Positions 6,571-34,024 of a DNA stretch of 34,190 bases are shown here, piece after piece. The stretch's first letter is position 1, and every line of letters starts with the position of its first letter. The notes under the pieces were generated by a model that worked only from the letters and a program-made list of their open reading frames with translations, was not told the DNA's origin and searched no databases. Both the position numbers and the translations under genes were made by a program. This stretch comes from a virus: positions 1 through 34,190 of IMG/VR virus record IMGVR_UViG_3300020436_000038. The stretch is one strand, 5' to 3'.

Positions 6571-7641
6571 ATGCAACATAACTTTATTCTAACTGATCTT
6601 ATGCGTACAGGCCCGCATCAAGATTTAGAAGATTTTATTGACATGGCAAACATCCATGATCAAACATTCACTTACACCGGTGATTATTATTCTCTACATA
6701 ATTTTGACTTAGACAAATATCAACGTAAATTTGCCATCATTGATTATCGTATAGATCTATGTTACCTGGCCGACAGTAAAACATTTAAAGATGACTTTAT
6801 GAAGCGTGTAGAATTGCTAAAAAGTCAAGGCTTTGTTTTTATTCGTGCCACGCCATGGGAAAGTTTAAGTAACTTAAAAGAACCTGTGTTGGCTCCTGCA
6901 AACAAAAGCGGTGTTGACGGATATTATTTTCCAAATTATCCTATTGAACATATTCAATGGACAGGTGATATAAGTTGGTTTTGGTTTTATATGTATCGTC
7001 AACATCATAAAAGCATGTTTACGCCAAATCATAATCAAAAAAAATATGATTTCCTATATCTTAACAAGGGACGACGTCAACATAGAACAAGATTATTCAG
7101 CAAATTAATCAACACAACATTATTAGAAAACAGTCTTTTCAGCAATCACAACTACATACCTAAATACATTTTGCCAACTGAATATGAAGAAAACTATCCA
7201 ATGCGTGGAGCAGATCAAAACATTGACCTAAAACATTACAATGATACAAAATATAGTATCATTTCTGAGACCAATGATAGCAACGATGAGATTTTTATGA
7301 CAGAAAAGATTTGGAAGCCAATTTTAGCTGAACATGTTTTTATTGTGCATGGCAACCACTTGTATCTACAAAAACTACGTGAACTAGGTTTTAAAACTTT
7401 CAATAATTATTTTGATGAAAGTTATGATCTAGAGCCCGATAAAAATATAAGAATTGATAAGATAGTATCTTTAATCTCAAATCTAAAAAATACAGATTGG
7501 CAAGATTTATACCTACAAACAAAAGGTTTACGACAACACAATAAAGACTTATTTTTAAATAAAGAAAAATTGCAAGAACAAATTAATAAAACTTTAATTC
7601 GCTTTCTTGAATTTGCTGACAGCAGTCAAATTACGTCTTGA
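6571..7641 (+). CDS. Glycosyltransferase-like protein, paralog 1 of 3 (356 aa)
   Basis: The C-terminal half carries a block shared with the proteins at 20194 and 21713: EKIWKPILAEHVFIVHGN, then YLQKLRELGFKTF and FDESYD (about residues 247-295). The pattern EK-x-x-KPI followed by a hydrophobic strand and a glycine resembles the sugar-nucleotide-binding C-terminal half of GT10/GT-B-type glycosyltransferases, where an acidic-Lys pair precedes a proline. The N-terminal half is poorly conserved between the three copies, as expected for acceptor-binding domains. The gene overlaps the convergent 8817-7594 gene by 48 bases. Glycosyl transfer is likely but not proven from sequence alone. Confidence 0.7.
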   Translation: MQHNFILTDLMRTGPHQDLEDFIDMANIHDQTFTYTGDYYSLHNFDLDKYQRKFAIIDYRIDLCYLADSKTFKDDFMKRVELLKSQGFVFIRATPWESLSNLKEPVLAPANKSGVDGYYFPNYPIEHIQWTGDISWFWFYMYRQHHKSMFTPNHNQKKYDFLYLNKGRRQHRTRLFSKLINTTLLENSLFSNHNYIPKYILPTEYEENYPMRGADQNIDLKHYNDTKYSIISETNDSNDEIFMTEKIWKPILAEHVFIVHGNHLYLQKLRELGFKTFNNYFDESYDLEPDKNIRIDKIVSLISNLKNTDWQDLYLQTKGLRQHNKDLFLNKEKLQEQINKTLIRFLEFADSSQITS

Positions 7642-8817
7642 GAATCCTAACCTATCAACAAGTTTAACAGCATTGCCTGTTTTGTCAACAGCAACAAATC
7701 CTTCAGGATCTGTAACAACTAATCCATTTTCAGTTTGTGCAAAAGATCCTATGGCCATTGCTTGATTCATTTTTTTTAGAATCATGGCTTTCATCTTTTG
7801 AACCTGTTTATAAAAAGCTAACATTCTTTGTAATGGAGCCTGTAATTTAGTCAAAAATTGTGGCATTTGTTTAATCTTGTCCTGTCTTAACTGAAGTGCC
7901 TTCTGTGCCTTCAAACCAGATATTTGCTGTTGCATTCTGTCAGCATAAAATTTTCTAAAACCATTTAGAAATTGTGTGCTATTGGTTGGCAACTCTCCTT
8001 GCTTCACCATTGAATTGATGTAGATTTGAAAAAAAGGTACAAAATCTTGATTTGCTCCAAACAGATTACTAATATTTCTCGGTATATTAGTCAACAATGA
8101 TTCTAGCTTATCTAATTCATTTAAAAAAATTTTGGTCTCGTCGTCTGTGAATTTGGCACTGCCTGAAACATCTTTGTAACTTGCGTTGTCAAAAAACACA
8201 GCACTATTTTTTGAAAATTCTTCTGTGTTAGCCCCAGCACTGGCATTCATATCTGCTAAAGTATCTCCTACATAAGTGGTATGAAATATTATACCCACTT
8301 TGGCTGTATCAATTTGTTTGGCCAAATCACTCTGTTCAGGCACAGCGTATGTGATTGTGTTTGGTGTAAAAGTCAGATGTGGTTTACCGTCTATGTTTTT
8401 TCTTGTAATGTCTTCGTCTGTAAAAAGTAAGTCTCCTTGATACACGCCATTCATTCCTATCTTTTTCAAATGCACTAAACATTTTAAAAGTTTTTGACCC
8501 AGCTCATCTGTGCCATGATTGTTTGCTATATCTCTCTTGGTATAATTTATTTTTGGAGTGCCTGGATTAAAAACTGATTTAGTTCCTACAAAAAATCTAC
8601 CGTTGTCTGGATTAACACCACACACCACAGCAGGAGCACCGTCCCACTTAACAGATACTTGTATCGCTTCTGAACTTGTGCCCTTTAATGTTAACAAAAG
8701 GCCCCTAAAATATTCTACAACTGCCTTGCCACCTTCAAATCCATCAGTGATTATTATGTCTTCAATGTGTTCAAGGTGAGTCCTTTTGAATTCTGTTAGG
8801 ACATCTTCTATCAACAT
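7594..8817 (-). CDS. Ligase-like nucleotidyltransferase-fold phage protein (407 aa)
   Basis: The segment VSVKWDGAPAVVCG (Lys57) matches motif I (K-x-D-G) of covalent nucleotidyltransferases such as DNA and RNA ligases. GVYQGDLLF (about 124-132) could be motif III, and AKVGIIFHTTY (about 172-182) could be motif IV. A motif V lysine pair is not obvious. The C-terminal 170 residues are helical and basic (QQQISGLKAQKALQLRQDK) and do not look like an OB fold, so this is not a standard ligase. A GAGGA site precedes the ATG. The gene follows the 9116-8820 gene by two bases and shares its late promoter. It may be a polynucleotide-modifying or virion enzyme. Confidence 0.75.
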   Translation of the reverse strand: MLIEDVLTEFKRTHLEHIEDIIITDGFEGGKAVVEYFRGLLLTLKGTSSEAIQVSVKWDGAPAVVCGVNPDNGRFFVGTKSVFNPGTPKINYTKRDIANNHGTDELGQKLLKCLVHLKKIGMNGVYQGDLLFTDEDITRKNIDGKPHLTFTPNTITYAVPEQSDLAKQIDTAKVGIIFHTTYVGDTLADMNASAGANTEEFSKNSAVFFDNASYKDVSGSAKFTDDETKIFLNELDKLESLLTNIPRNISNLFGANQDFVPFFQIYINSMVKQGELPTNSTQFLNGFRKFYADRMQQQISGLKAQKALQLRQDKIKQMPQFLTKLQAPLQRMLAFYKQVQKMKAMILKKMNQAMAIGSFAQTENGLVVTDPEGFVAVDKTGNAVKLVDRLGFSRRNLTAVSKFKKAN

Positions 8818-25446: not shown

Positions 25447-25974
25447 ATGAAGATCAAAGAATTCATTTCTACGCCAAAAACAAATCTAGACACTACATCT
25501 AGTGGCACAATATATAGTATCTCATCTGAACCAGAGACACAAGATCTAGTGCCACAAGATCATGTGCCAGAAAAAATAATGGCAGAAACGGTTGACGGAG
25601 AAATTTTGGAGATGCCTGATCACTCGGCCATCACAGAAGGAGTCAGTCAAATTTTTAGAAGACAAAAAGGTGGAGCACCTAAAAAAGGATTTAGATGTAC
25701 CTCTGGACCAAGAAAAGGTCGTATTGTGGCCAAGCCTTCAACCTGTTTCCAAAAAACAGATCCAGTTCGTTCTGCCAAAATTAGAAAGAAAAGATTAGCC
25801 AAAGCAAAAATAGCTGGTAAGAAACTTGCTCAAACAAAAAGAACTGGAGCAGGTGCGAGAAGATTAAAAGGTATTCAAATCAAAAAAACTAAAGGCACTC
25901 AACCAAGACTGGGTGGTTCAAGAACTGGAGCAAGACCGCTTCAAAAATCCAAAGTAGTAAAACCAAAAAAATAG
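25447..25974 (+). CDS. Lysine/arginine-rich protein, possible virion or DNA-packing protein (175 aa)
   Basis: The protein begins MKIKEFISTPKTNLDTTSSG. Its first 75 residues are acidic to neutral. The C-terminal 100 residues are very basic with Gly and Ala (RKKRLAKAKIAGKKLAQTKR, then RRLKGIQIKKTKGTQPRLGG). Two cysteines occur in GFRCTSGPRKGR and PSTCFQKT. This split suggests a nucleic-acid-binding tail on a small head domain, as in phage DNA-packing or internal proteins. It is preceded by a late motif at the exact five-base spacing and is the last late-type gene before the early block. Confidence 0.75.
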   Translation: MKIKEFISTPKTNLDTTSSGTIYSISSEPETQDLVPQDHVPEKIMAETVDGEILEMPDHSAITEGVSQIFRRQKGGAPKKGFRCTSGPRKGRIVAKPSTCFQKTDPVRSAKIRKKRLAKAKIAGKKLAQTKRTGAGARRLKGIQIKKTKGTQPRLGGSRTGARPLQKSKVVKPKK

Positions 25975-26089
25975 TAGACTATATCTAGTAGTTGATCTCA
26001 TACCCAGGCACTAGATCCTGTAGGCTAAAAAGTCGCTATTTTATTGATGTTTTTAGTCGGCTTTATATATACCAAAATTTTTACCGAGG
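25975..26089. other. Intergenic stretch with two stem-loops before the early block
   Basis: No gene is seen here. ATCTAGT (25983-25989) can pair with ACTAGAT (26010-26016). CTAAAAA (26025-26031) can pair with TTTTTAG (26050-26056). The second, AT-rich hairpin could act as a weak terminator just before the first early-type promoter. Confidence 0.5.
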
Positions 26090-26117
26090 TTGACGCATAT
26101 CCAATCCATGCTAAAAT
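26090..26117 (+). promoter_or_regulatory. Early-type promoter cassette 1
   Basis: GAGGTTGACG, a 16-base spacer containing ATCCATG, and TAAAAT (26112-26117). It drives the genes at 26191 and 26471. The leader of about 70 bases is much longer than in the other five copies. Confidence 0.8.
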
Positions 26118-26122
26118 GAAAC

Positions 26123-26200
26123 ATGACTGAAAGGGAATTGATAGGAGCTCTTAGCCGAGTAGGTCATACAAAATTTACAAAGGAGTTGAAATGCAATTAG
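26123..26200 (+). CDS. Putative 25-residue leader peptide
   Basis: An ATG at 26123, five bases after the -10 box, opens a frame MTERELIGALSRVGHTKFTK plus five residues. It ends at a TAG at 26198-26200, overlapping the first ten bases of the 26191 gene in another frame and reading through its AAGGAG site. It would need leaderless initiation. Coding is unproven; see findings. Confidence 0.35.
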   Translation: MTERELIGALSRVGHTKFTKELKCN

Positions 26201-26463
26201 AAACAAGATCAGGAAAGATGGTAAAAACTTTAGACACAATCTATGATGAATTTGTGGAAGGTTATCTTCAAGGCAATTTCATAGAAGGCATCTGTAGTTG
26301 GAACGGTGACGATGCTCTTATGTCGCCATTTACATTTGGAAATAGATTCGCAGAACATTGTTCCAAGTTAGGATATGATGCCTATGACTATCAAGGTCAT
26401 ATGGCAGAGTTGATAGAGTGGTGCAGAGAACATTTAGATCATTTAGAAAGTAAATTTAGATAG
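26191..26463 (+). CDS. Small acidic protein of unknown function (90 aa)
   Basis: This acidic protein begins MQLETRSGKMVKTLDTIYDE and contains a segment rich in aromatic residues and histidine (GYDAYDYQGHMAELIEWCRE) and two conserved-looking Trp residues. An AAAGGAGTTGAA site precedes the ATG. It is the first gene of early operon 1. No domain is recognised; small acidic early phage proteins often bind host regulators, which is only a suggestion. Confidence 0.75.
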   Translation: MQLETRSGKMVKTLDTIYDEFVEGYLQGNFIEGICSWNGDDALMSPFTFGNRFAEHCSKLGYDAYDYQGHMAELIEWCREHLDHLESKFR

Positions 26464-26470
26464 GAGAAAT

Positions 26471-26710
26471 ATGACAATTATTGAAAACCACAGACATACA
26501 TTCGCGGTAGAAGACATTGGAGACTTTGATCTAGATCAAGATAGATCAATTGTGCCTAGCATTGAATGGGCATTAAGAGACGCAGATATTGAAGCCACAG
26601 TTGTTGGTGAAGAACATAGCCAAGCGGCGTTCTCAGTCTATACCAAGCATCCAAGATCAGTTGTGGCAACTGCCATAACCAAAGCTGAAATCTATTTGGA
26701 GGACGAATAA
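26471..26710 (+). CDS. Small acidic protein of unknown function (79 aa)
   Basis: This protein begins MTIIENHRHTFAVEDIGDFD and ends with a helix (AITKAEIYLEDE). A GGAGAA site lies in the seven-base gap after the upstream stop. It completes early operon 1. The fold looks alternating alpha/beta, but no family can be named. Confidence 0.7.
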   Translation: MTIIENHRHTFAVEDIGDFDLDQDRSIVPSIEWALRDADIEATVVGEEHSQAAFSVYTKHPRSVVATAITKAEIYLEDE

Positions 26711-26742
26711 AAAGCCAGTAGACATGGAAGTTTTTAGCCAGG

Positions 26743-26770
26743 TTGACGCTTTTACCATCCATGTTACAAT
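26743..26770 (+). promoter_or_regulatory. Early-type promoter cassette 2
   Basis: CAGGTTGACG, a 16-base spacer with ATCCATG, and TACAAT (26765-26770). It lies 31 bases before the ATG at 26801 and drives the operon to 27979. Confidence 0.85.
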
Positions 26771-26800
26771 GAAAACACTAACACCAACAAAGGGAGGAAA

Positions 26801-27100
26801 ATGTTAGACAAGAAAACAAAAAAACTAATCGAAGAAATCTACACTTTAGGTGGTACAGAATTGAGCCTGATTGTAGATGCTGTTAAGTTGAGAAGAAATC
26901 AACTTCATACTTTTGATGCTCAAGCATTGAGAGTTGGTGACAGAGTAACTTTCACAGGCAGACATTCAAGAATTGAAACTGGTACTGTTGAAAAGATTAA
27001 AATCAAGTATGTTCTTATTAAAACTGACAGAGGTCAGAGATGGAATGTACCTGGCAGTCATCTAACTGTTATCACAGACAAGGAGGCAGTTGATGCCTAA
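26801..27100 (+). CDS. Small protein with an SH3/KOW-like C-terminus (99 aa)
   Basis: The N-terminal half is helical (LDKKTKKLIEEIYTLGGTEL). The C-terminal half reads RVGDRVTFTGRHSRIETGTV, then KIKYVLIKTDRGQRWNVPGS, a pattern of short beta strands around G-D-R-V and a basic loop like KOW or SH3-type small barrels that bind RNA or protein. A strong AAAGGGAGG site precedes the ATG. It is the first gene of early operon 2 and overlaps the next gene by eight bases. The barrel call is from pattern only. Confidence 0.75.
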   Translation: MLDKKTKKLIEEIYTLGGTELSLIVDAVKLRRNQLHTFDAQALRVGDRVTFTGRHSRIETGTVEKIKIKYVLIKTDRGQRWNVPGSHLTVITDKEAVDA

Positions 27101-27737
27101 TTATTGTAACAATAACATTGTCATCACCGGGCCAAACTCGGTGATTGATAAGATTGAAAAGATTGCCAACGGAGACAAAGGCGATTTATTACAATATTTT
27201 TATCCAATGCCAGAAGCATTAAAAGACACAACCGCACCTCTTCCAAAGGATGCCACAAAAGAAGAAAAAGCCAAAGCCAAGGAGAACTTGAAAAAATATG
27301 GCTACGACAACTGGTACGATTGGAGAGTTGAAAATTGGGGAACCAAATGGGATATTATGGAGTTCTACAATATCAATAGAAAAGAAATTGGTGAAGATGA
27401 ATCTGAGATCTCATTGGGATTTGATACTGCCTGGGCTCCGGCTCTAGGTGCTTATGAAAAGTTCATAGATGAAAATAGTAATTGTTCCTTGAAGGCATAC
27501 TATTATGAACCTGGCTGTGATTTTATGGGCGAATGGGACAACGGCATTGATAGTTGTTTCGAGGTTGCCAAATACGGTTTGGATGATGACTTTTGGAAAC
27601 AGGGCATAGGATCAACTCTAGATGACTACTTTGGTATCACAGAATCTATGGCTCAATATCTCGAAGACACAATGATGGATGAAGAAGTCTACAAATATTC
27701 CAAAGGTGAAAAAGTCAACATAGGAGAGGATGCCTAA
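27093..27737 (+). CDS. Api92-like/YubB-type ferredoxin-fold protein (214 aa)
   Basis: The N-terminus MPNYCNNNIVITGPNSVIDK is typical of Api92-like phage and plasmid proteins, where M-P-N-[YW]-C-x-N-x-[IVL]-x-[IV]-x-G starts a ferredoxin-like domain. YDWRVENWGTKWDI (about residues 75-88) and ISLGFDTAWAPALGAYEKF (about 107-125) are also characteristic of that family. The function of these proteins is unknown; they are often found among anti-defence or early genes. The ATG at 27093 is preferred over the TTG at 27090. It overlaps the next gene by one base. Confidence 0.85.
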   Translation: MPNYCNNNIVITGPNSVIDKIEKIANGDKGDLLQYFYPMPEALKDTTAPLPKDATKEEKAKAKENLKKYGYDNWYDWRVENWGTKWDIMEFYNINRKEIGEDESEISLGFDTAWAPALGAYEKFIDENSNCSLKAYYYEPGCDFMGEWDNGIDSCFEVAKYGLDDDFWKQGIGSTLDDYFGITESMAQYLEDTMMDEEVYKYSKGEKVNIGEDA

Positions 27738-27979
27738 TGTGGACAGATGAATTGTTTGACGAGATACAGAAAGGTGACCGTGTGTGGTATGAAACGGCAC
27801 AGGGTCAGACTAGATCCGGCAAGGCCTTAATGATAGGCCCTATGGGTTGGGTGTTGGACACAGGTGGCGGAGATCCTAAAGTTGTCAATGAAGGCTACAA
27901 TTACCTGGGACATAAGCCTATGAAAGGCAGAACTCCAGACCATTTGGGACATTTTTTGAACAAATTTAAAGATGATTAG
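27737..27979 (+). CDS. Small protein with a barrel-like N-terminus (80 aa)
   Basis: The protein begins MWTDELFDEIQKGDRVWYET and continues TRSGKALMIGPMGWVLDTGG, again a G-D-R-V barrel pattern similar to the 26801 protein but shorter. The C-terminus is His/Lys/Gly-rich (NYLGHKPMKGRTPDHLGHFL). Its ATG overlaps the upstream stop (TAATG). It is the last gene of early operon 2. Function unknown. Confidence 0.75.
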   Translation: MWTDELFDEIQKGDRVWYETAQGQTRSGKALMIGPMGWVLDTGGGDPKVVNEGYNYLGHKPMKGRTPDHLGHFLNKFKDD

Positions 27980-28014
27980 GCAAAAAAGTCAATGTTTATG
28001 CGGCTTTTAGCAGG

Positions 28015-28042
28015 TTGACGGTATTACCATCCGTGCTACAAT
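28015..28042 (+). promoter_or_regulatory. Early-type promoter cassette 3
   Basis: CAGGTTGACG, a 16-base spacer with ATCCGTG, and TACAAT (28037-28042). It drives the operon 28069-29342. Confidence 0.85.
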
Positions 28043-28068
28043 GAATTATGAAACAAGGAGTTGAAAAT

Positions 28069-28461
28069 ATGTATAAAAGAGATGAACATTATTATTCAGT
28101 AATTTCTACAGAAGATCTGTATAAAGAATTGAATACAATCTACACAGGCGAAACTGACTTGGTACAGTCTTTGATGAGTCAGAAGATATCAGACGGCACT
28201 ATTACTACAAGACACGAATTGGGTGTAGCCAATGAAGAACTTTGGAGCCTAAATGATTGGCCTGAGGGTGAAGGCTTTGGCAGTTCAGACCATTATTGGT
28301 ACTTCAAAAGAATAAATGAAAGTATCGCCAGAGAGAGAAAATTCTTACAGGCAGAATCAGAATTGGTTGCAATAAACAAACTGACTGAATCTCCTAAGAA
28401 TGATGATGTTAGAAAATATATGAAAATGAACGAACAAATCGAGAAAGGGTTGGTGGCATAA
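28069..28461 (+). CDS. Unknown early protein (130 aa)
   Basis: The protein begins MYKRDEHYYSVISTEDLYKE and is mainly helical and charged (RINESIARERKFLQAESELV). The ATG at 28069 was chosen because it follows the standard CAAGGAGTTGAAAAT leader. An in-frame ATG at 28048 is only five bases from the -10 box and would be at or before +1. It is the first gene of early operon 3 and overlaps the next gene by one base. No family recognised. Confidence 0.75.
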   Translation: MYKRDEHYYSVISTEDLYKELNTIYTGETDLVQSLMSQKISDGTITTRHELGVANEELWSLNDWPEGEGFGSSDHYWYFKRINESIARERKFLQAESELVAINKLTESPKNDDVRKYMKMNEQIEKGLVA

Positions 28462-29000
28462 TGGCGACAAGAGCAAGAATAGGAATAAAACAAAAAAGCG
28501 GCAGAATCATTGCCGCTTATCAACATTGGGATGGTTACCCTGGAGGACTTGGATATAACCTATGTGAAAATTGGGAAGATCCAAAGAAGGTCACAGAAGC
28601 AATCAAATTGGGCAACAGTTCTAAATGGCAGACAATCATAGGTGATAAGATAGACTTTGACGATAGAGATAATCCTATGCACCAAGTTCAGAATTGTTAT
28701 TATGGCAGAGATAGAGGCGAGAAAGATCAAGGTTATCGAGTGTATAAAGATGAAGCAGACTATATCAAGAACGGATTCAAGTCTGGAGAAGAATATGTTT
28801 ATCTTATGAAGCTGGAAGGTGACAAAGATTACATGGATAGACCTAGAGGCACTTGGTACTATGTGGAAAGCAGATACACAGATCAAGGCAAAGAAGTTAT
28901 AGATGAACAGTTCAAGCCTTTGGAAGAGGCGGCAATCAATGATCATATTGAAATGTTGAATAGACATCTTGAAATGTTAAAAAGAAGAAAGGCGGCGTAA
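28461..29000 (+). CDS. Phage-type protein of unknown function (179 aa)
   Basis: The N-terminus MATRARIGIKQKSGRIIAAY, followed by QHWDGYPGGLGYNL, resembles a widespread group of small phage proteins that begin with M-A-T-R and a Y-x-H-W-D-G-Y-P motif. The middle has a DDRDNPMHQVQNCYYGRDRG segment and the C-terminus is helical (NDHIEMLNRHLEMLKRRKAA). The group has no known function that I can state. The gene ends with a stop-start overlap onto the 29000 mini-gene. Confidence 0.8.
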   Translation: MATRARIGIKQKSGRIIAAYQHWDGYPGGLGYNLCENWEDPKKVTEAIKLGNSSKWQTIIGDKIDFDDRDNPMHQVQNCYYGRDRGEKDQGYRVYKDEADYIKNGFKSGEEYVYLMKLEGDKDYMDRPRGTWYYVESRYTDQGKEVIDEQFKPLEEAAINDHIEMLNRHLEMLKRRKAA

Positions 29001-29116
29001 TGGATAAATTGAAAGCAATTACAAAATCTATTTTGGATGCGGTATGGTTTGGATCTTACACGGTTCTACCAACTGTTGGATTTTTGTTCGCAATAGGATT
29101 CTTAGAAATTGCCTAG
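29000..29116 (+). CDS. Single-span membrane mini-protein (38 aa)
   Basis: A 38-codon frame begins MDKLKAITKSILDAVWFGSY and continues as a hydrophobic helix (TVLPTVGFLFAIGFLEIA). It has a basic N-terminus and one membrane segment. Its ATG overlaps the upstream stop (TAATG), and its stop overlaps the TTG start of the next gene, so the chain is tightly coupled. It could be a small membrane-acting early protein; the call rests on coupling and composition. Confidence 0.7.
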   Translation: MDKLKAITKSILDAVWFGSYTVLPTVGFLFAIGFLEIA

Positions 29117-29342
29117 ATACAAAATAGATATCGCGGATATTGTTTATGGATATCCTAGTTCTCAGCCGGTCTTTAGCGACGAAAAAAGGCCGGAAAGAGA
29201 CTTTATCTATGTGACCGCACCAAACGGATTCGTGGCAGAGATAAAAGCAGAAGAAATTTACCAAAAAAATCCTAAGAAATACAAGAAAATTTTGAAAGAT
29301 ACTATATCTAGTGCCAAGAAAAAGGCTCGGCACAACATATAG
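29109..29342 (+). CDS. Small basic protein (77 aa, TTG start)
   Basis: The frame begins with a TTG at 29109 that overlaps the stop of the mini-gene and reads MPRYKIDIADIVYGYPSSQP. No in-frame ATG is available. The C-terminus is Lys-rich (PKKYKKILKDTISSAKKKAR). A small hairpin (GGCAC 29329-29333, GTGCC 29342-29346) spans the stop codon. It is the last gene of early operon 3. Function unknown. Confidence 0.65.
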   Translation: MPRYKIDIADIVYGYPSSQPVFSDEKRPERDFIYVTAPNGFVAEIKAEEIYQKNPKKYKKILKDTISSAKKKARHNI

Positions 29343-29355
29343 TGCCATTCTGAGG

Positions 29356-29383
29356 TTGACGGTACCTGGATCCATGTTATTAT
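29356..29383 (+). promoter_or_regulatory. Early-type promoter cassette 4
   Basis: GAGGTTGACG, a 16-base spacer with ATCCATG, and TATTAT (29378-29383). It drives the longest early operon (29408-32591), including the hydrolase and the ligase. Confidence 0.85.
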
Positions 29384-29407
29384 GAATAATACAAAGGAGT
29401 TGAAAAT

Positions 29408-29791
29408 ATGATAAAAGAAGATACTAAAACATTGTTGAAGTTTAATGCAGAAGGCATACATCCAGGCGAGATGTTTTTCAATGCAAGCCTAGAGGCAGCA
29501 AAGGCAGTTGATGACTATGTAGAAAAATACGGTGAGCCAATGTATTGTGGTTTCGCCAATGTTTCAATACATCCTGCTAGAGGCAGATTTGTTAGATACA
29601 TGAAACAGATGAAGATAGGTGATAATGGTTTCAGAGGCGGTTGGAGAATATCTTACTATGACATCATGCCAAAGAATCATCCATATCTTCATACACAGTC
29701 GATGAGTATCAGAGAAATTGCCTGTGATGCTTTTAAAGATGAACTTGAAAAATATGGATTGACTGTCTATTCAGAAAGCAGAGGAGATTAA
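29408..29791 (+). CDS. Unknown early protein (127 aa)
   Basis: The protein begins MIKEDTKTLLKFNAEGIHPG and contains YCGFANVSIHPARGRFVRYM and FRGGWRISYYDIMP, an alpha/beta pattern with conserved-looking Gly, Arg and aromatic residues. The AAGGAGTTGAAAAT leader precedes the ATG. It is the first gene of early operon 4 and overlaps the hydrolase gene by one base. No family recognised. Confidence 0.75.
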   Translation: MIKEDTKTLLKFNAEGIHPGEMFFNASLEAAKAVDDYVEKYGEPMYCGFANVSIHPARGRFVRYMKQMKIGDNGFRGGWRISYYDIMPKNHPYLHTQSMSIREIACDAFKDELEKYGLTVYSESRGD

Positions 29792-30375
29792 TGAAAGGCA
29801 CTTTGGAATTCGTTATTGAATCGGCAAGGGCGGTGATGGCCTCCCTTGCTATCTCACACGAAGTTGATACAGGTTTTATTAATGCAGAAGAAGAATTAAA
29901 ATGTATGGCAGAGAACATCTACTTTGAAGGCAGAGCAGAGCCTATGAAAGGCAAGGTTGCGATTGCCAATGTGGTAATGAACAGAGTGATGAGTGACAGA
30001 CATCCAGACACAATCTGTGAAGTGGTACATGAAGGTCCTCACAGGGAGAGTTGGAAGACCAAAGGCAAGGATGTGCCAGATTCCGATAGAAAATATTATC
30101 CTATCAGAAACAGATGTGACTTCAGTTGGTACTGTGATGGCAAGAAAGACATTGTTTGGGTATCTTATATGGATGGCACAATTATAGAAGCCAATTATAT
30201 TGCTTGGAGAGATAGTGTGAATGTGGCCCTGTTTGTGATGTCTGATCAGATAGGAGACATAACAGATGGAGCAGACCATTATTACAATTACAATATTGCC
30301 AATCCTTATTGGGTTGGAGCAATGACAGAAACTGTAATAATTGGTAACCATAGATTTATGAAAGAGAAACGATGA
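29791..30375 (+). CDS. SleB/CwlJ-type cell-wall hydrolase (194 aa)
   Basis: The core MAENIYFEGRAEPMKGKVAI, followed by ANVVMNRV (about residues 39-66), matches the Hydrolase_2 family of SleB/CwlJ lytic enzymes, where an E-A-R-x-E-like helix is followed by A-x-x-x-V-x-x-N-R. The later RCDFSWYCDGKKD fits the F-S-x-x-x-D-G block. These enzymes cleave peptidoglycan glycan strands. The first 25 residues are only mildly hydrophobic (SARAVMASLAISHEV), so export is not clear and a holin may be needed. It lies in an early-type operon, which is unusual for a lysin. It overlaps the next gene by four bases. Confidence 0.87.
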   Translation: MKGTLEFVIESARAVMASLAISHEVDTGFINAEEELKCMAENIYFEGRAEPMKGKVAIANVVMNRVMSDRHPDTICEVVHEGPHRESWKTKGKDVPDSDRKYYPIRNRCDFSWYCDGKKDIVWVSYMDGTIIEANYIAWRDSVNVALFVMSDQIGDITDGADHYYNYNIANPYWVGAMTETVIIGNHRFMKEKR

Positions 30376-30668
30376 GATCTAGTTTGAAAAAAGCATTGGA
30401 TGATCATGACAAATATCTTAAAAAAATGGGCCTAGATAAAATTAGAAAGAAAAACAAAAAAGAAACTTTTGTATTCGATACAGGTTATAATAGAAATACT
30501 GTTCCAACAAGCGATCAAATTCCTGTCCTGAACAAAGGCAATAAAAGATCTGAGATACATTATACAGGAGAAAGAAAGTTGTTAGGCATTGGACTATTAC
30601 ATAAAAGCAATTTGGTTCCGGTATGGGACGAAACAGATGCAAAAGAAATAACAAGGATGAGAAGATAA
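30372..30668 (+). CDS. Small basic protein (98 aa)
   Basis: The protein begins MRSSLKKALDDHDKYLKKMG and has a Lys/Arg-rich helical start followed by a more structured part (KRSEIHYTGERKLLGIGLLH, then SNLVPVWDETDAKEI). It sits between the hydrolase and the DNA ligase with stop-start overlaps on both sides. It could bind nucleic acid or be an adaptor for the ligase, but no family is recognised. Confidence 0.75.
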   Translation: MRSSLKKALDDHDKYLKKMGLDKIRKKNKKETFVFDTGYNRNTVPTSDQIPVLNKGNKRSEIHYTGERKLLGIGLLHKSNLVPVWDETDAKEITRMRR

Positions 30669-31957
30669 TGAAAGACCCATGGATAATAATAAAAGAACTT
30701 GAAGCAGATAATTCAAGGCTGAAGAAAGAAGCTATAATCAGAAGAGAATCTGATGCAGACAATGATGTGTTTTTTGAAGGTGCGTGTATGGCACTAGATG
30801 GATTTAGAACATACGGAGTCAAGCAGGTGCCCAAGTCTACAAAAGATGGTGGTGGTATGACTTGGCTAGAATTCAAAGAATTGGTTAGACAATTGGAACA
30901 TCGTGAAGCCACAGGTAATACTGCCAAGCAGATGGTTCAACAGGCGTGTGATGAATCCAATAAAGATCAATGGAACAATTGGTATCGTAGAATACTGATC
31001 AAAGATCTTAGATGTGGAGTTACACACAAGACAATCAATAAACATTCTACAATGAAGGTTCCGGTGTTTGAATGTATGTTGGCAGATGATTCTAAAAAAC
31101 ATGAAAAGAAAATGGTGGGTGAAGTGTTGGTTGAACCTAAACTAGACGGCGTGAGAGTAGTAGCCATATTGGATGTGGATAAAGATGAGGTAAAGATGTA
31201 TTCAAGAAACGGAAAAGAACTTTATAATTTTCCTAAGATTGTGGCACAACTAGATTCAATGCTAGATCAAATGCCGGAGAGTATGGTGTTCGATGGTGAG
31301 GTAATGAGTGATGACTTTCAAACTTTGATGAGAGAGATACACAGAAAAGAGGGAGCAAAAACAGATGATGCCATCTTAAATGTGTTTGACTGTTTGCCTT
31401 TAATCGACTTTATGGGTGGTGGCTGTGGATTGACAATCACCAAGAGAAAACAGATGTTGGAAGACTTTGAATATCCTGAGAACATTAGATTGGTAGAATA
31501 TGTTAAAATGAATCTAAGTGATGAAGATGGGCAGAAGCAGTTCGCAGACTATAACAAACTTTGTATTGACAAAGGTTATGAAGGCATAATGGTGAAGCCA
31601 ATTATTGGTTCCTATGAATGTAAAAGATCAAGTCTTTGGCTAAAGGTCAAACCATTTATAGAAGTAAGTTTGACTGTGAAAGATGTGGAGGAAGGCACAG
31701 GTCGGAATGCAGGTAAACTGGGTGCCTTAATTGTAGAAGGAACAGACGGTGGCAAGTTTATCAAGACCAATGTTGGTTCTGGTCTTACAGATGCAGACAG
31801 AGATACATTTTGGAAGGCCAAGTCCAAACTGATTGGCCAAGTGGTTGAAGTGCGAGCAGATCAAATCACACAGAATCAAGATGTTACAGATGAATGGAGT
31901 CTTAGATTTCCAAGGTTCCTAAGATTTAGAGGCTTTGAAGTAGGAGAAAAACTATGA
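30668..31957 (+). CDS. ATP-dependent DNA ligase, T4 gp30-like (429 aa)
   Basis: The nucleotidyltransferase motifs are clear: motif I VEPKLDGVRV with Lys158, MYSRNGKELYNFP (motif Ia/II region), MVFDGEVMSDDFQ (motif III), YEGIMVKPI (motif IV) and SLWLKVKPF (motif V), followed by an OB-fold-like domain (LIVEGTDGGKFIKTNVGSG). The N-terminal 140 residues form a helical DNA-binding domain, as in T4-type ligases. The ATG at 30668 overlaps the previous stop (TAATG) and is preferred over one 45 bases upstream. The enzyme seals nicks in replication and repair in the host cytoplasm. It appears intact and is the clearest core phage gene here. Confidence 0.95.
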   Translation: MKDPWIIIKELEADNSRLKKEAIIRRESDADNDVFFEGACMALDGFRTYGVKQVPKSTKDGGGMTWLEFKELVRQLEHREATGNTAKQMVQQACDESNKDQWNNWYRRILIKDLRCGVTHKTINKHSTMKVPVFECMLADDSKKHEKKMVGEVLVEPKLDGVRVVAILDVDKDEVKMYSRNGKELYNFPKIVAQLDSMLDQMPESMVFDGEVMSDDFQTLMREIHRKEGAKTDDAILNVFDCLPLIDFMGGGCGLTITKRKQMLEDFEYPENIRLVEYVKMNLSDEDGQKQFADYNKLCIDKGYEGIMVKPIIGSYECKRSSLWLKVKPFIEVSLTVKDVEEGTGRNAGKLGALIVEGTDGGKFIKTNVGSGLTDADRDTFWKAKSKLIGQVVEVRADQITQNQDVTDEWSLRFPRFLRFRGFEVGEKL

Positions 31958-32172
31958 TTAAAGAATCTAAACATGAATTTGGATTTGAGGAGGCTCGTAT
32001 GTCAGGTGGATCTGTATTTGAAACAGGTGTAAAAGAATCTAAAAATAACAAAGCCATAAGAAGAATTGCTGAACCTTTGATGAAAAAACATTGGCATGAC
32101 AAAGTTGAAAACTTGCATAGGATCTATAGGGTAGCTGAATATCTTCTTGCAAGACAAAGGAGAGGCAAATGA
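31954..32172 (+). CDS. Small helical protein (72 aa)
   Basis: The protein begins MIKESKHEFGFEEARMSGGS and ends with a helix (DKVENLHRIYRVAEYLLARQ) and a basic tail. It overlaps the ligase gene by four bases (ATGA), so it is co-translated. No motif is known; a ligase partner or early regulator is possible. Confidence 0.7.
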   Translation: MIKESKHEFGFEEARMSGGSVFETGVKESKNNKAIRRIAEPLMKKHWHDKVENLHRIYRVAEYLLARQRRGK

Positions 32173-32199
32173 CTTCAACAACTATAAAGGAGAACTAAT

Positions 32200-32421
32200 A
32201 TGGAAGATCTAGATAAAATCTTAGGCGATATTGCTCAAGAAGAAGAAAAGAAAGACTATGCAGATGAATGGTGGTGTATGGATTGTGAACATGGCCCAAT
32301 GGATGAAAAGGACGATAAGTGTTCAAGATGTGGCACACGAAACAGCCAATATCAAAGTGATGAAGAGATCACAGGTTGGGAAGATGAAGATATAGAATCA
32401 GAAGTGGAGGAAATATGGTAA
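32200..32421 (+). CDS. Acidic zinc-ribbon protein (73 aa)
   Basis: A four-cysteine zinc ribbon is visible: Cys26-x-x-Cys29 (WWCMDCEHG) and Cys41-x-x-Cys44 (CSRCGT). Both flanks are very acidic (GDIAQEEEKKDYADEW and EDEDIESEVEEIW). An AAAGGAG site precedes the ATG. Such proteins often bind RNA polymerase or other host factors; here this is inference. It is followed by an overlapping 58-codon gene. Confidence 0.8.
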   Translation: MEDLDKILGDIAQEEEKKDYADEWWCMDCEHGPMDEKDDKCSRCGTRNSQYQSDEEITGWEDEDIESEVEEIW

Positions 32422-32591
32422 CAACTATGACAAAAGAAACCAAAGATAGGATCAGAGACTTAGAAGGGCAGAAAATAGTTCTTGAGGACAGACTGGAAAT
32501 GATATCCTACTCTGGTAATTTGGTAAAGATGCACGAAATTGAGTCAGAAATTTATGAAATTGAAGATACTATCTGTAAATTAACCGCATAA
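32415..32591 (+). CDS. Small coiled-coil protein (58 aa)
   Basis: This short frame begins MVTTMTKETKDRIRDLEGQK and continues as a charged helix (ESEIYEIEDTICK). A GGAGG site lies six bases before the ATG inside the end of the zinc-ribbon gene, and the overlap is seven bases. It ends just before early-type promoter cassette 5. Function unknown. Confidence 0.7.
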   Translation: MVTTMTKETKDRIRDLEGQKIVLEDRLEMISYSGNLVKMHEIESEIYEIEDTICKLTA

Positions 32592-32610
32592 AATGGAAGG
32601 TTTTTGGTGG

Positions 32611-32638
32611 TTGACGGTCTAGGTATCCATGTTATTAT
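32611..32638 (+). promoter_or_regulatory. Early-type promoter cassette 5
   Basis: GTGGTTGACG, a 16-base spacer with ATCCATG, and TATTAT (32633-32638). It drives the operon 32662-33973. Confidence 0.85.
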
Positions 32639-32661
32639 GAATTATGTACGAAGGAGTTGAA

Positions 32662-32898
32662 ATGCAAAAAAACAAGAAACAATTTTATATCACAGAATTA
32701 CATATGGGTGATGATGGTTTAGAATCTTATACAGATTGTTCAGGACCATTTACATTACAAAAGGCAAGAAGAATTATGGAGAAGATCTTTAATGCTAGAT
32801 CATATAGTAATTTTTACAACATGGCAATCAGAGGTCCAAGACATGAAAACAAATATGGACACAGAACAGAATTTTATCAACAAAGGGAGGACAAATAA
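32662..32898 (+). CDS. Small basic protein of unknown function (78 aa)
   Basis: The protein begins MQKNKKQFYITELHMGDDGL and has a helical centre (FTLQKARRIMEKIFNARSYS). The ATG at 32662 follows the standard AAGGAGTTGAA leader. The in-frame ATG at 32644 is five bases after the -10 box and lies before the ribosome site, so I do not use it. It is the first gene of early operon 5 and overlaps the next by one base. Confidence 0.72.
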   Translation: MQKNKKQFYITELHMGDDGLESYTDCSGPFTLQKARRIMEKIFNARSYSNFYNMAIRGPRHENKYGHRTEFYQQREDK

Positions 32899-33296
32899 TG
32901 TTTAAGAAAATTGAAAGACAACTAAGATTATTTACAGAAGGCACAGGCCTTGCAGATAGATGTGAGGTTATTCACGGTACTCTGTATGTGAAATTGAAGG
33001 ATGACAAAAACTGTGACTTCTTTCATGCAGAGTTGAGAGGCTTCTACAAAGAGTTTATTTCCGCAGATGGTGGCGTGAATATGTATGCCGTAGGAGATGA
33101 ATTCGCTTTTGACTTTGTGCCTGAAGACAGAGAGGCGCCAGTTTTTAGCGACAGAGAATATTCTGGAAAAGAAGGCATGATGCCAGATGATATGGACTAT
33201 GGCGTATGGTCAGAGTTCGCTGAAGAAGGTCTTAGAGAAGATGCAGAAGTTGATGTGGCAATAAATTTAGAAGCAGAATCAAAGAGGGGAAAATAA
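32898..33296 (+). CDS. Acidic unknown protein (132 aa)
   Basis: The protein begins MFKKIERQLRLFTEGTGLAD with a basic, helical N-terminus and becomes very acidic toward the end (MMPDDMDYGVWSEFAEEGLR). A strand-rich middle (CEVIHGTLYVKLKDDKNCDF) may be a small alpha/beta domain. A GGGAGG site precedes the ATG, and the gene overlaps both neighbours by one base. Function unknown. Confidence 0.72.
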   Translation: MFKKIERQLRLFTEGTGLADRCEVIHGTLYVKLKDDKNCDFFHAELRGFYKEFISADGGVNMYAVGDEFAFDFVPEDREAPVFSDREYSGKEGMMPDDMDYGVWSEFAEEGLREDAEVDVAINLEAESKRGK

Positions 33297-33511
33297 TGCC
33301 AGGAGATTATGAAGCAGTAAAAAAAATATTAGATGAATACGACATCAAAGACATAGATGATTTAGAATACGGCGGCATGTGTTTCGACGATTTATTAGAT
33401 TATTTCGCAGACGAGATTCCATATGGTGTTTTGAAGGCAAGAACAGGTATGCCAGATGAATGGATATATGACAAGTTGTGTGATCTAGGATTTGATAAGG
33501 AGTGGGCATGA
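33296..33511 (+). CDS. Small acidic protein (71 aa)
   Basis: The protein begins MPGDYEAVKKILDEYDIKDI and is strongly acidic with a helical layout (GMCFDDLLDYFADEIPYGVL, then ARTGMPDEWIYDKL). The ATG overlaps the upstream stop (TAATG), and the next start overlaps its end. Such acidic early proteins may mimic nucleic acid or bind host enzymes; that is a guess. Confidence 0.72.
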   Translation: MPGDYEAVKKILDEYDIKDIDDLEYGGMCFDDLLDYFADEIPYGVLKARTGMPDEWIYDKLCDLGFDKEWA

Positions 33512-33717
33512 TAACAAACAAAATAAACTTGGTTATCAACCTATCTATTTTGGCCTTGTTAATTTATTTGGCTGTGAATGTGAACAAGCTGAATGAAAAG
33601 GTTTTTCCAGATCCAAATGTTATGATTCCGATGAGTGAGAACTATGATCAAAGGTTAGAAGACCTAGTAAAAAATTTAATAATCAATAAATTAGAAGAGT
33701 CCAATGCTCAGAACTAA
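33508..33717 (+). CDS. Single-span membrane protein (69 aa)
   Basis: The N-terminus MITNKINLVINLSILALLIY, followed by LAVNVNKL, is a single membrane helix with a short cytoplasmic lead. The rest is soluble and acidic or helical. The ATG at 33508 overlaps the upstream stop (ATGA) and has an AAGGAG site; the GTG at 33502 is less likely. It may be a small membrane-acting early protein. Function unknown. Confidence 0.7.
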   Translation: MITNKINLVINLSILALLIYLAVNVNKLNEKVFPDPNVMIPMSENYDQRLEDLVKNLIINKLEESNAQN

Positions 33718-33973
33718 AAGACAAACACCATTAAAACATCAATTCATTTCTGAGATATTGAGATACGAATTGAAGAAGCATGATTGGTCAGATGTGGAAC
33801 ACAAGAACACAATCAAGGCTTTGATCGAGGATGCTTATGAAACAGGTTTTGATCCTTGCAGAATATTCTATGAGTTCTGCCCTGTGGAAGGCATAGAAGA
33901 AAAAGAATATGGCATGAAAAAAACTTGGGAAGAAACCATGGATGAAATTGCTGAAGAATATAATGGTTGCTGA
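33704..33973 (+). CDS. Small helical protein (89 aa)
   Basis: The protein begins MLRTKRQTPLKHQFISEILR and continues as charged helices (KHDWSDVEHKNTIKALIEDA) with an acidic tail (KTWEETMDEIAEEYNGC). It overlaps the membrane-protein gene by 14 bases and is the last gene of early operon 5. Its stop lies two bases before the -35 region of cassette 6. No family recognised. Confidence 0.7.
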   Translation: MLRTKRQTPLKHQFISEILRYELKKHDWSDVEHKNTIKALIEDAYETGFDPCRIFYEFCPVEGIEEKEYGMKKTWEETMDEIAEEYNGC

Positions 33974-33975
33974 GG

Positions 33976-34003
33976 TTGACGCATTTGGTAATCGTAGTAT
34001 AAT
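33976..34003 (+). promoter_or_regulatory. Early-type promoter cassette 6
   Basis: GAGGTTGACG, a 16-base spacer (here with ATCGTAG instead of ATCCATG) and a perfect TATAAT (33998-34003). It drives the gene at 34025. Confidence 0.85.
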
Positions 34004-34024
34004 GAATAAAACAAAGGAGTTGAA

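Follow-up and report, generated by a model that had tools for sequence, protein, structure and literature searches.

A repeated early-type promoter in an uncultured marine virus, probably also a joint for module exchange

The window, by which we mean the whole 34-kb stretch analyzed here (an uncultured-virus record with 36% G+C), carries six copies of one cassette in its last 8 kb, all on the + strand (Table 1). These copies are probably strong early promoters for the host RNA polymerase and serve in addition as short homologous joints in the exchange of modules. The promoter part of this explanation, which it has in common with a rival explanation by promoters alone, is highly probable, and the joint role that it adds is less certain. 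Each cassette would be a strong site for a host sigma70-type polymerase (TTGAC, a 16-bp spacer, TG, a TATAAT-like -10, and GAA), followed by a short leader that carries a strong ribosome site, and would head a few early accessory genes as one small operon. Recombination within one cassette would place a different first gene behind unchanged upstream sequence, and the copies could act as short homologous joints because a core of about 33 bp and a similar leader are common to all of them. We infer early activity of the cassettes, their reading by host sigma70, and a joint made by recombination within the repeat. A single short sequence appears to be both switch and joint.

We assign the window virus provisionally to the Kyanoviridae, as a marine T4-like phage. 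For a conserved protein of 407 amino acids (7594-8817), the named sequences that matched best came from Pelagibacter phage HTVC008M (43.6% identity) and from the Methylophilales Melnitz phages, and cyanophages came next; a megablast search for near-identical phage records gave no match. At the early-type end of the window, small genes, most of them without known function, accompany genes for an ATP-dependent DNA ligase and a cell wall hydrolase. Contigs of two metagenome-assembled genomes, one labeled Candidatus Pelagibacter and the other Rickettsiales, carry the same promoters together with the phage genes, and on the basis of this binning and of kinship SAR11 is therefore the likely host.

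The first-pass annotation had listed six sites with a common core, a spacer of exactly 16 bases, a TATAAT-like hexamer, and GAA; its coordinates were all exact, and the whole arrangement was present at 6/6 sites on the + strand. It had also described ATCC-[AG]-TG in five of the six and a leader with AAGGAGTTGAA in all but the second cassette, and both counts held, the spacer word being missing only at the cassette at 33974. That cassette (P6) has neither ATCC nor TG and carries instead a GGTAATC variant, which was also found in relatives. A scan of the window for GGTTGACG-N16-TANNATGAA gave six matches on the + strand and none on the - strand, and a control scan with the reversed pattern gave none. 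In a weight matrix built from the six sites, these scored 38.5-48.0 bits; no other place on the two strands exceeded 9.6, a gap of 29 bits. Under leave-one-out, the sites retained 26-43 bits each, and the rest of the window did not exceed 12.3. All six are intergenic or lie immediately after a stop codon, in a stretch that is covered to about 90% by ORFs of at least 40 amino acids. Equal numbers of the pattern inside genes or on the other strand, which the annotation had named as refuting its proposal, were not found.

The -35 and -10 hexamers stand at sigma70 spacing (TTGACG-16-TAnnAT) at 6/6 window sites, and an extended -10 TGn is present at 5/6 of them and at 75/84 distinct sites in relatives. 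A plain sigma70 scan of the window did not single out the six sites (32 found vs. 28 expected in shuffles), and the late-promoter contrast [TA]ATAAATA was not above expectation in the window.

Table 1. Positions of the cassettes, their leaders and operons, and other elements in the window and in related loci
Feature	Position	Strand	TTGACG start	Description
P1 cassette	26088..26120	+	26090	GGTTGACG CATATCCA ATCCATGC TAAAAT GAA; exact pattern; 42.4 bits
P1 leader	26121..26190	+		70 nt; AAGGAGTTGAA at its end (26180-26190)
P1 operon	26191-26463, 26471-26710			Genes
P2 cassette	26741..26773	+	26743	GGTTGACG CTTTTACC ATCCATGT TACAAT GAA; leader AAGGGAGGAA; 48.0 bits
P2 operon	26801-27100, about 27094-27737, 27737-27979			Genes
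P3 cassette	28013..28045	+	28015	GGTTGACG GTATTACC ATCCGTGC TACAAT GAA; 47.5 bits
P3 leader and operon	28055-28065; from 28069			AAGGAGTTGAA; genes
P4 cassette	29354..29386	+	29356	GGTTGACG GTACCTGG ATCCATGT TATTAT GAA; 42.6 bits
P4 leader and operon	29394-29404; 29408-32591			AAGGAGTTGAA; genes
P4 operon domains	29791-30375; about 30668-31957			Cell wall hydrolase; DNA ligase
P5 cassette	32609..32641	+	32611	GGTTGACG GTCTAGGT ATCCATGT TATTAT GAA; 44.5 bits
P5 leader and first gene	32651-32661; 32662-32898			AAGGAGTTGAA; gene, in relatives a slot-P1 gene
P6 cassette	33974..34006	+	33976	GGTTGACG CATTTGGT AATCGTAG TATAAT GAA; 38.5 bits
P6 leader and gene	34014-34024; from 34025			AAGGAGTTGAA; gene continues past window end
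18-bp near-palindrome pair	29298..29346 (29298-29315, 29329-29346)			GGCACTAGATATAGTGCC type; just upstream of P4
84-nt leader RNA	L223:515-598	+		Also in L025, L214, L211, L235, L236, L239, L244, L288
Facing-apart promoter pairs	L029:5654-5766, L050:936-1050, L223:337-514			And others
G+C-richer array	L015, L017, L020, L024, L034, L035, L038			Loci
Lone variant	L093:18749, L082:13146, L084:10946, L105:15776			In G010, G007, G008, G014

Relatives were gathered by IMG/VR pattern scans and protein search, which yielded a clade of marine records. Matches to GGTTGAC[GC]-N16-TANNNTGAA were present in 33/36 related records, usually with 2-7 copies each, and the reversed pattern had none in all 36; the scan of this genome and related phages that the annotation had proposed bore out the pattern. 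The same scan found no match in HTVC008M or Melnitz. The spacer was 16 bp in 88/88 sites from 30 regions, selected without using the spacer, and in none was it 13-15 or 17-20 bp; since the records had been chosen for at least one 16-bp site, this count speaks for their other copies. The repeats, their conservation, and their fixed spacing are direct observations. The consensus was GGTTGAC[GC] [GC]TATTACC ATCC[AG]TG[TC] TATA[AC]T GAA. Before TG (positions 8-20), the spacer held 10.8 bits in 84 distinct sites, also selected without using the spacer; four mid-spacer bases vary (TACC, GGTA, AGGT, CCTG), with two or more G or C in 82/84 sites. Upstream of GG, where an A/T-rich UP element would lie, T was enriched at -8 to -5, and farther upstream there was a weak A/T bias. 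The original suggestion that these would be early-promoter cassettes heading small operons is supported by where they lie, by their consensus and fixed spacing, and by their conservation in relatives.

The spacer word had been singled out as one that sigma70 does not need and that was not known from other phages. This was right for ATCC before TG, which is real and is the unusual part of the word, and not for TG, which is the ordinary extended -10. The word is specific to the window's clade. A scan for it in 84,980 genomes of bacteria and archaea turned up 18 matches, the alphaproteobacterial ones on phage contigs and the others scattered. We rejected a word common to host promoters, as bacterial chromosomes had only these few scattered matches besides the phage contigs.

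Other elements were observed among the relatives. Records 3300037189_024364 and 3300032315_001715 (170 and 453 kb) have a similar, G+C-richer array with many copies, of the form GGTTGACG-N16-TAnnATG with CGTGC before the -10 and the leader GCAAGCAAAGGAGC. Outside the early cluster, and at a great distance from it, there is a conserved lone variant that lacks ATCC, GGTTGACG-TATTTGGAAATTATGC-TATAAT. The slot-P1 promoter of at least nine related records is followed directly by a structured leader RNA of 84 nt (GAUUACAAGGUUGCAG...UGCGGUAAUC), and an IMG/VR scan found this RNA only there. Changes on both sides preserve the pair in 8/19 of its predicted pairs, it folds at -23 to -30 kcal/mol, and it had no match in Rfam. 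It is absent from the window, where the P1 leader (70 nt, at the same place) is unrelated; an Rfam search with the window leader gave no match of worth.

A simple ORF picker served to define gene families in 30 regions. The six slots stand in mostly one order across the relatives, and each operon retains anchor genes (families 5, 17, and 3 in P1; 7, 8, and 11 in P2; 12 and 31 in P3; 14 and 22 in P4; 29 in P5; 40 and 44 in P6). The first gene of the operon changes: family 15 occurs behind P1, P3, or P4, family 13 behind P3 or P4, and family 28 behind P1 in relatives and behind P5 in the window. The exchanged copies are truly related; family 13, for example, has 85% amino-acid identity between P3 in G031 and P4 in G008. 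DNA similarity changes partner at the cassette in three worked cases. Upstream of P5 in the window, 80 bases share 85% identity with P5 of the relative G010 and 56% with its P1; for the 117 bases past the core, identity is 83% with G010 P1 and 70% with G010 P5. P4 of G031 is 86% like G010 P4 upstream and 87% like G010 P3 downstream, and the third case, G031 P3, switches on the downstream side. That first genes are exchanged, and that similarity switches at the cassette, are direct observations. Neighboring genes were separated in relatives at 66% of the cassette junctions and 34% of the others (15 records; the counts are not independent). The cassettes had been likened to mobile ones; mobility holds for the downstream genes, and the slot order and upstream sequence are mostly passed on without moving.

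About half of the records have the P1 operon in inverted orientation, which leaves two cassettes facing apart with about 145 bp between them; the window has the co-directional arrangement.

Against the joint role, there may be causes other than the repeat for the more frequent breaks at operon borders, and first-gene moves also need a second breakpoint that has no cassette. The sites could be promoters only, their likeness coming from selection for strong host polymerase binding and the first-gene changes from ordinary gain and loss at operon heads, an explanation that we hold to be somewhat unlikely. It agrees with the finding that ATCCRTGY is alike in every slot (0.75-0.80) and that the 20 bases upstream of the cassette and the mid-spacer are alike only within a slot (0.46 vs. 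0.34 and 0.56 vs. 0.44, respectively), following slot and not genome; extra consensus is present in T4 early promoters too (PMC2988021). However, the likeness among copies of one genome is slightly above what label shuffles give (2/500), and in the three worked cases the DNA downstream of one slot most resembles a gene from a different slot of a relative, the change of partner falling at the cassette. Promoters that double as joints are the reading we prefer. Recent copying of one cassette round the genome was rejected, as the upstream sequence follows the slot and not the genome. By these comparisons the slots are old and the spacer word is held by selection, and exchange is occasional because the slots retain their own upstream sequence.

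It is quite unlikely that ATCC[AG]TG, beyond its TG, is the binding site of a phage or virion protein that switches the early promoters together. The spacer content of the window clade (10.8 bits, 84 sites) is high beside that of T4 (3.3 bits, 31 early-type promoters) and HTVC008M (4.2 bits, 17), the spacing is fixed, and the word is absent from bacterial chromosomes save for the few scattered matches and phage contigs. Nevertheless, the mid-spacer varies, no candidate regulator was found, and ATCC[AG]TG sits where sigma and the beta-prime zipper could touch the DNA, which counts against a separate factor. The ATCC may instead aid polymerase binding. The T4 early and middle regulators are also reported absent from this group, pelagimyophages and cyanomyophages being without motA, asiA, alt, modA, and modB, and a MotA-type reader is unlikely for this reason (PMC7029224). 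A T4 middle promoter, in which a MotA box replaces the -35, was rejected, as 6/6 sites have a full -35 and motA and asiA are among the genes reported absent. Decidedly unlikely, too, is the extended proposal that ATCC[AG]TG is a second, phage-specific code for a phage- or virion-delivered factor while the same 33 bp also form the joint for first-gene swaps. Such a code, if true, would let the whole clade coordinate every early operon with neither MotA nor AsiA.

PeSL cassettes were reportedly treated by Arbiol in 2010 and Comeau in 2014, the title of the latter work being said to name promoter-terminator motifs and shuffling. In outline, PMC4503421 presents PeSLs as composite promoter-terminator motifs that mediate shuffling in RB49, phi1, and other T4-like phages. 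We consider it very unlikely that the window cassettes are true PeSLs, in which, as in RB49 and phi1, promoter and stem-loop terminator move together. Several copies among dense small genes and the shuffling of first genes would fit; however, upstream folding of the cassettes was no stronger than that of control gene starts (mean z -0.51 vs. -0.50), and terminator-like hairpins were found at 3/111 cassettes vs. 4/280 controls, with none at the six window sites. An upstream stem-loop was rejected as a part of the cassette on these two results, and the weak stem-loops noted earlier upstream of some copies proved no stronger than those at other gene starts, the fourth cassette excepted. There, just upstream of P4, an 18-bp near-palindrome pair of the GGCACTAGATATAGTGCC type gives a stable fold (z -2.6 to -2.9). 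This near-palindrome had six window matches at no more than three mismatches (0.01 expected); it occurs also at 25489-25553, near the start of the early region, and its exact CTAGATATAGTGCC was present in 14 fetched loci. It may be an operator or a hairpin. Chance or composition, producing look-alike hexamers in AT-rich intergenic DNA, has next to no probability, for although the plain sigma70 scan finds as many sites in shuffles, the 29-bit matrix gap and the absence of reversed-pattern matches in 36 records refute it.

The cassettes resemble T4 early promoters in their many dispersed copies, in their -35, extended -10, and -10 elements, and in heading small early genes. T4 early promoters are made up of UP, -35, TGn, and -10 elements, are read by host sigma70, and have extra consensus (PMC2988021). 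In T4, 31 minus-strand sites match TTKAC-N15-TGN-TANNNT. Unlike these, the window's clade has TTGAC[GC] instead of TTTAC, a 16-bp instead of a 17-bp spacer, ATCC before TG, GG before TTGAC, and GAA after the -10. The 17-bp spacer is a habit of T4 and not a requirement of sigma70. The early promoters of HTVC008M likewise have TTGAC with TGn and a -10, but they are of the TGATATAAT type with a 17-bp spacer and no ATCC word, and none of them matches the window's promoter class. The pelagimyophage survey obtained early promoters with a general predictor, to which middle and late ones were undetectable (PMC7029224), and there is now a sharp motif for the early operons of this abundant ocean phage group.

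In common with PeSLs, the cassettes are a repeated early promoter in many copies, in a plastic region of small genes where modules exchange. Unlike PeSLs, they have no associated stem-loop terminator, the slot order is mostly kept, and it is the first gene that moves and not the whole cassette. The likeness to PeSLs suggested at first thus held for the shuffling, that is, the exchange of first genes between slots and the partner switch at the cassette, presumably by recombination, and failed for the stem-loop terminator. Because the terminator feature fails, we do not file the window cassettes as PeSLs, although their shuffling is PeSL-like. The two halves of the PeSL idea come apart here, and exchange at repeated promoters seems possible without a terminator.
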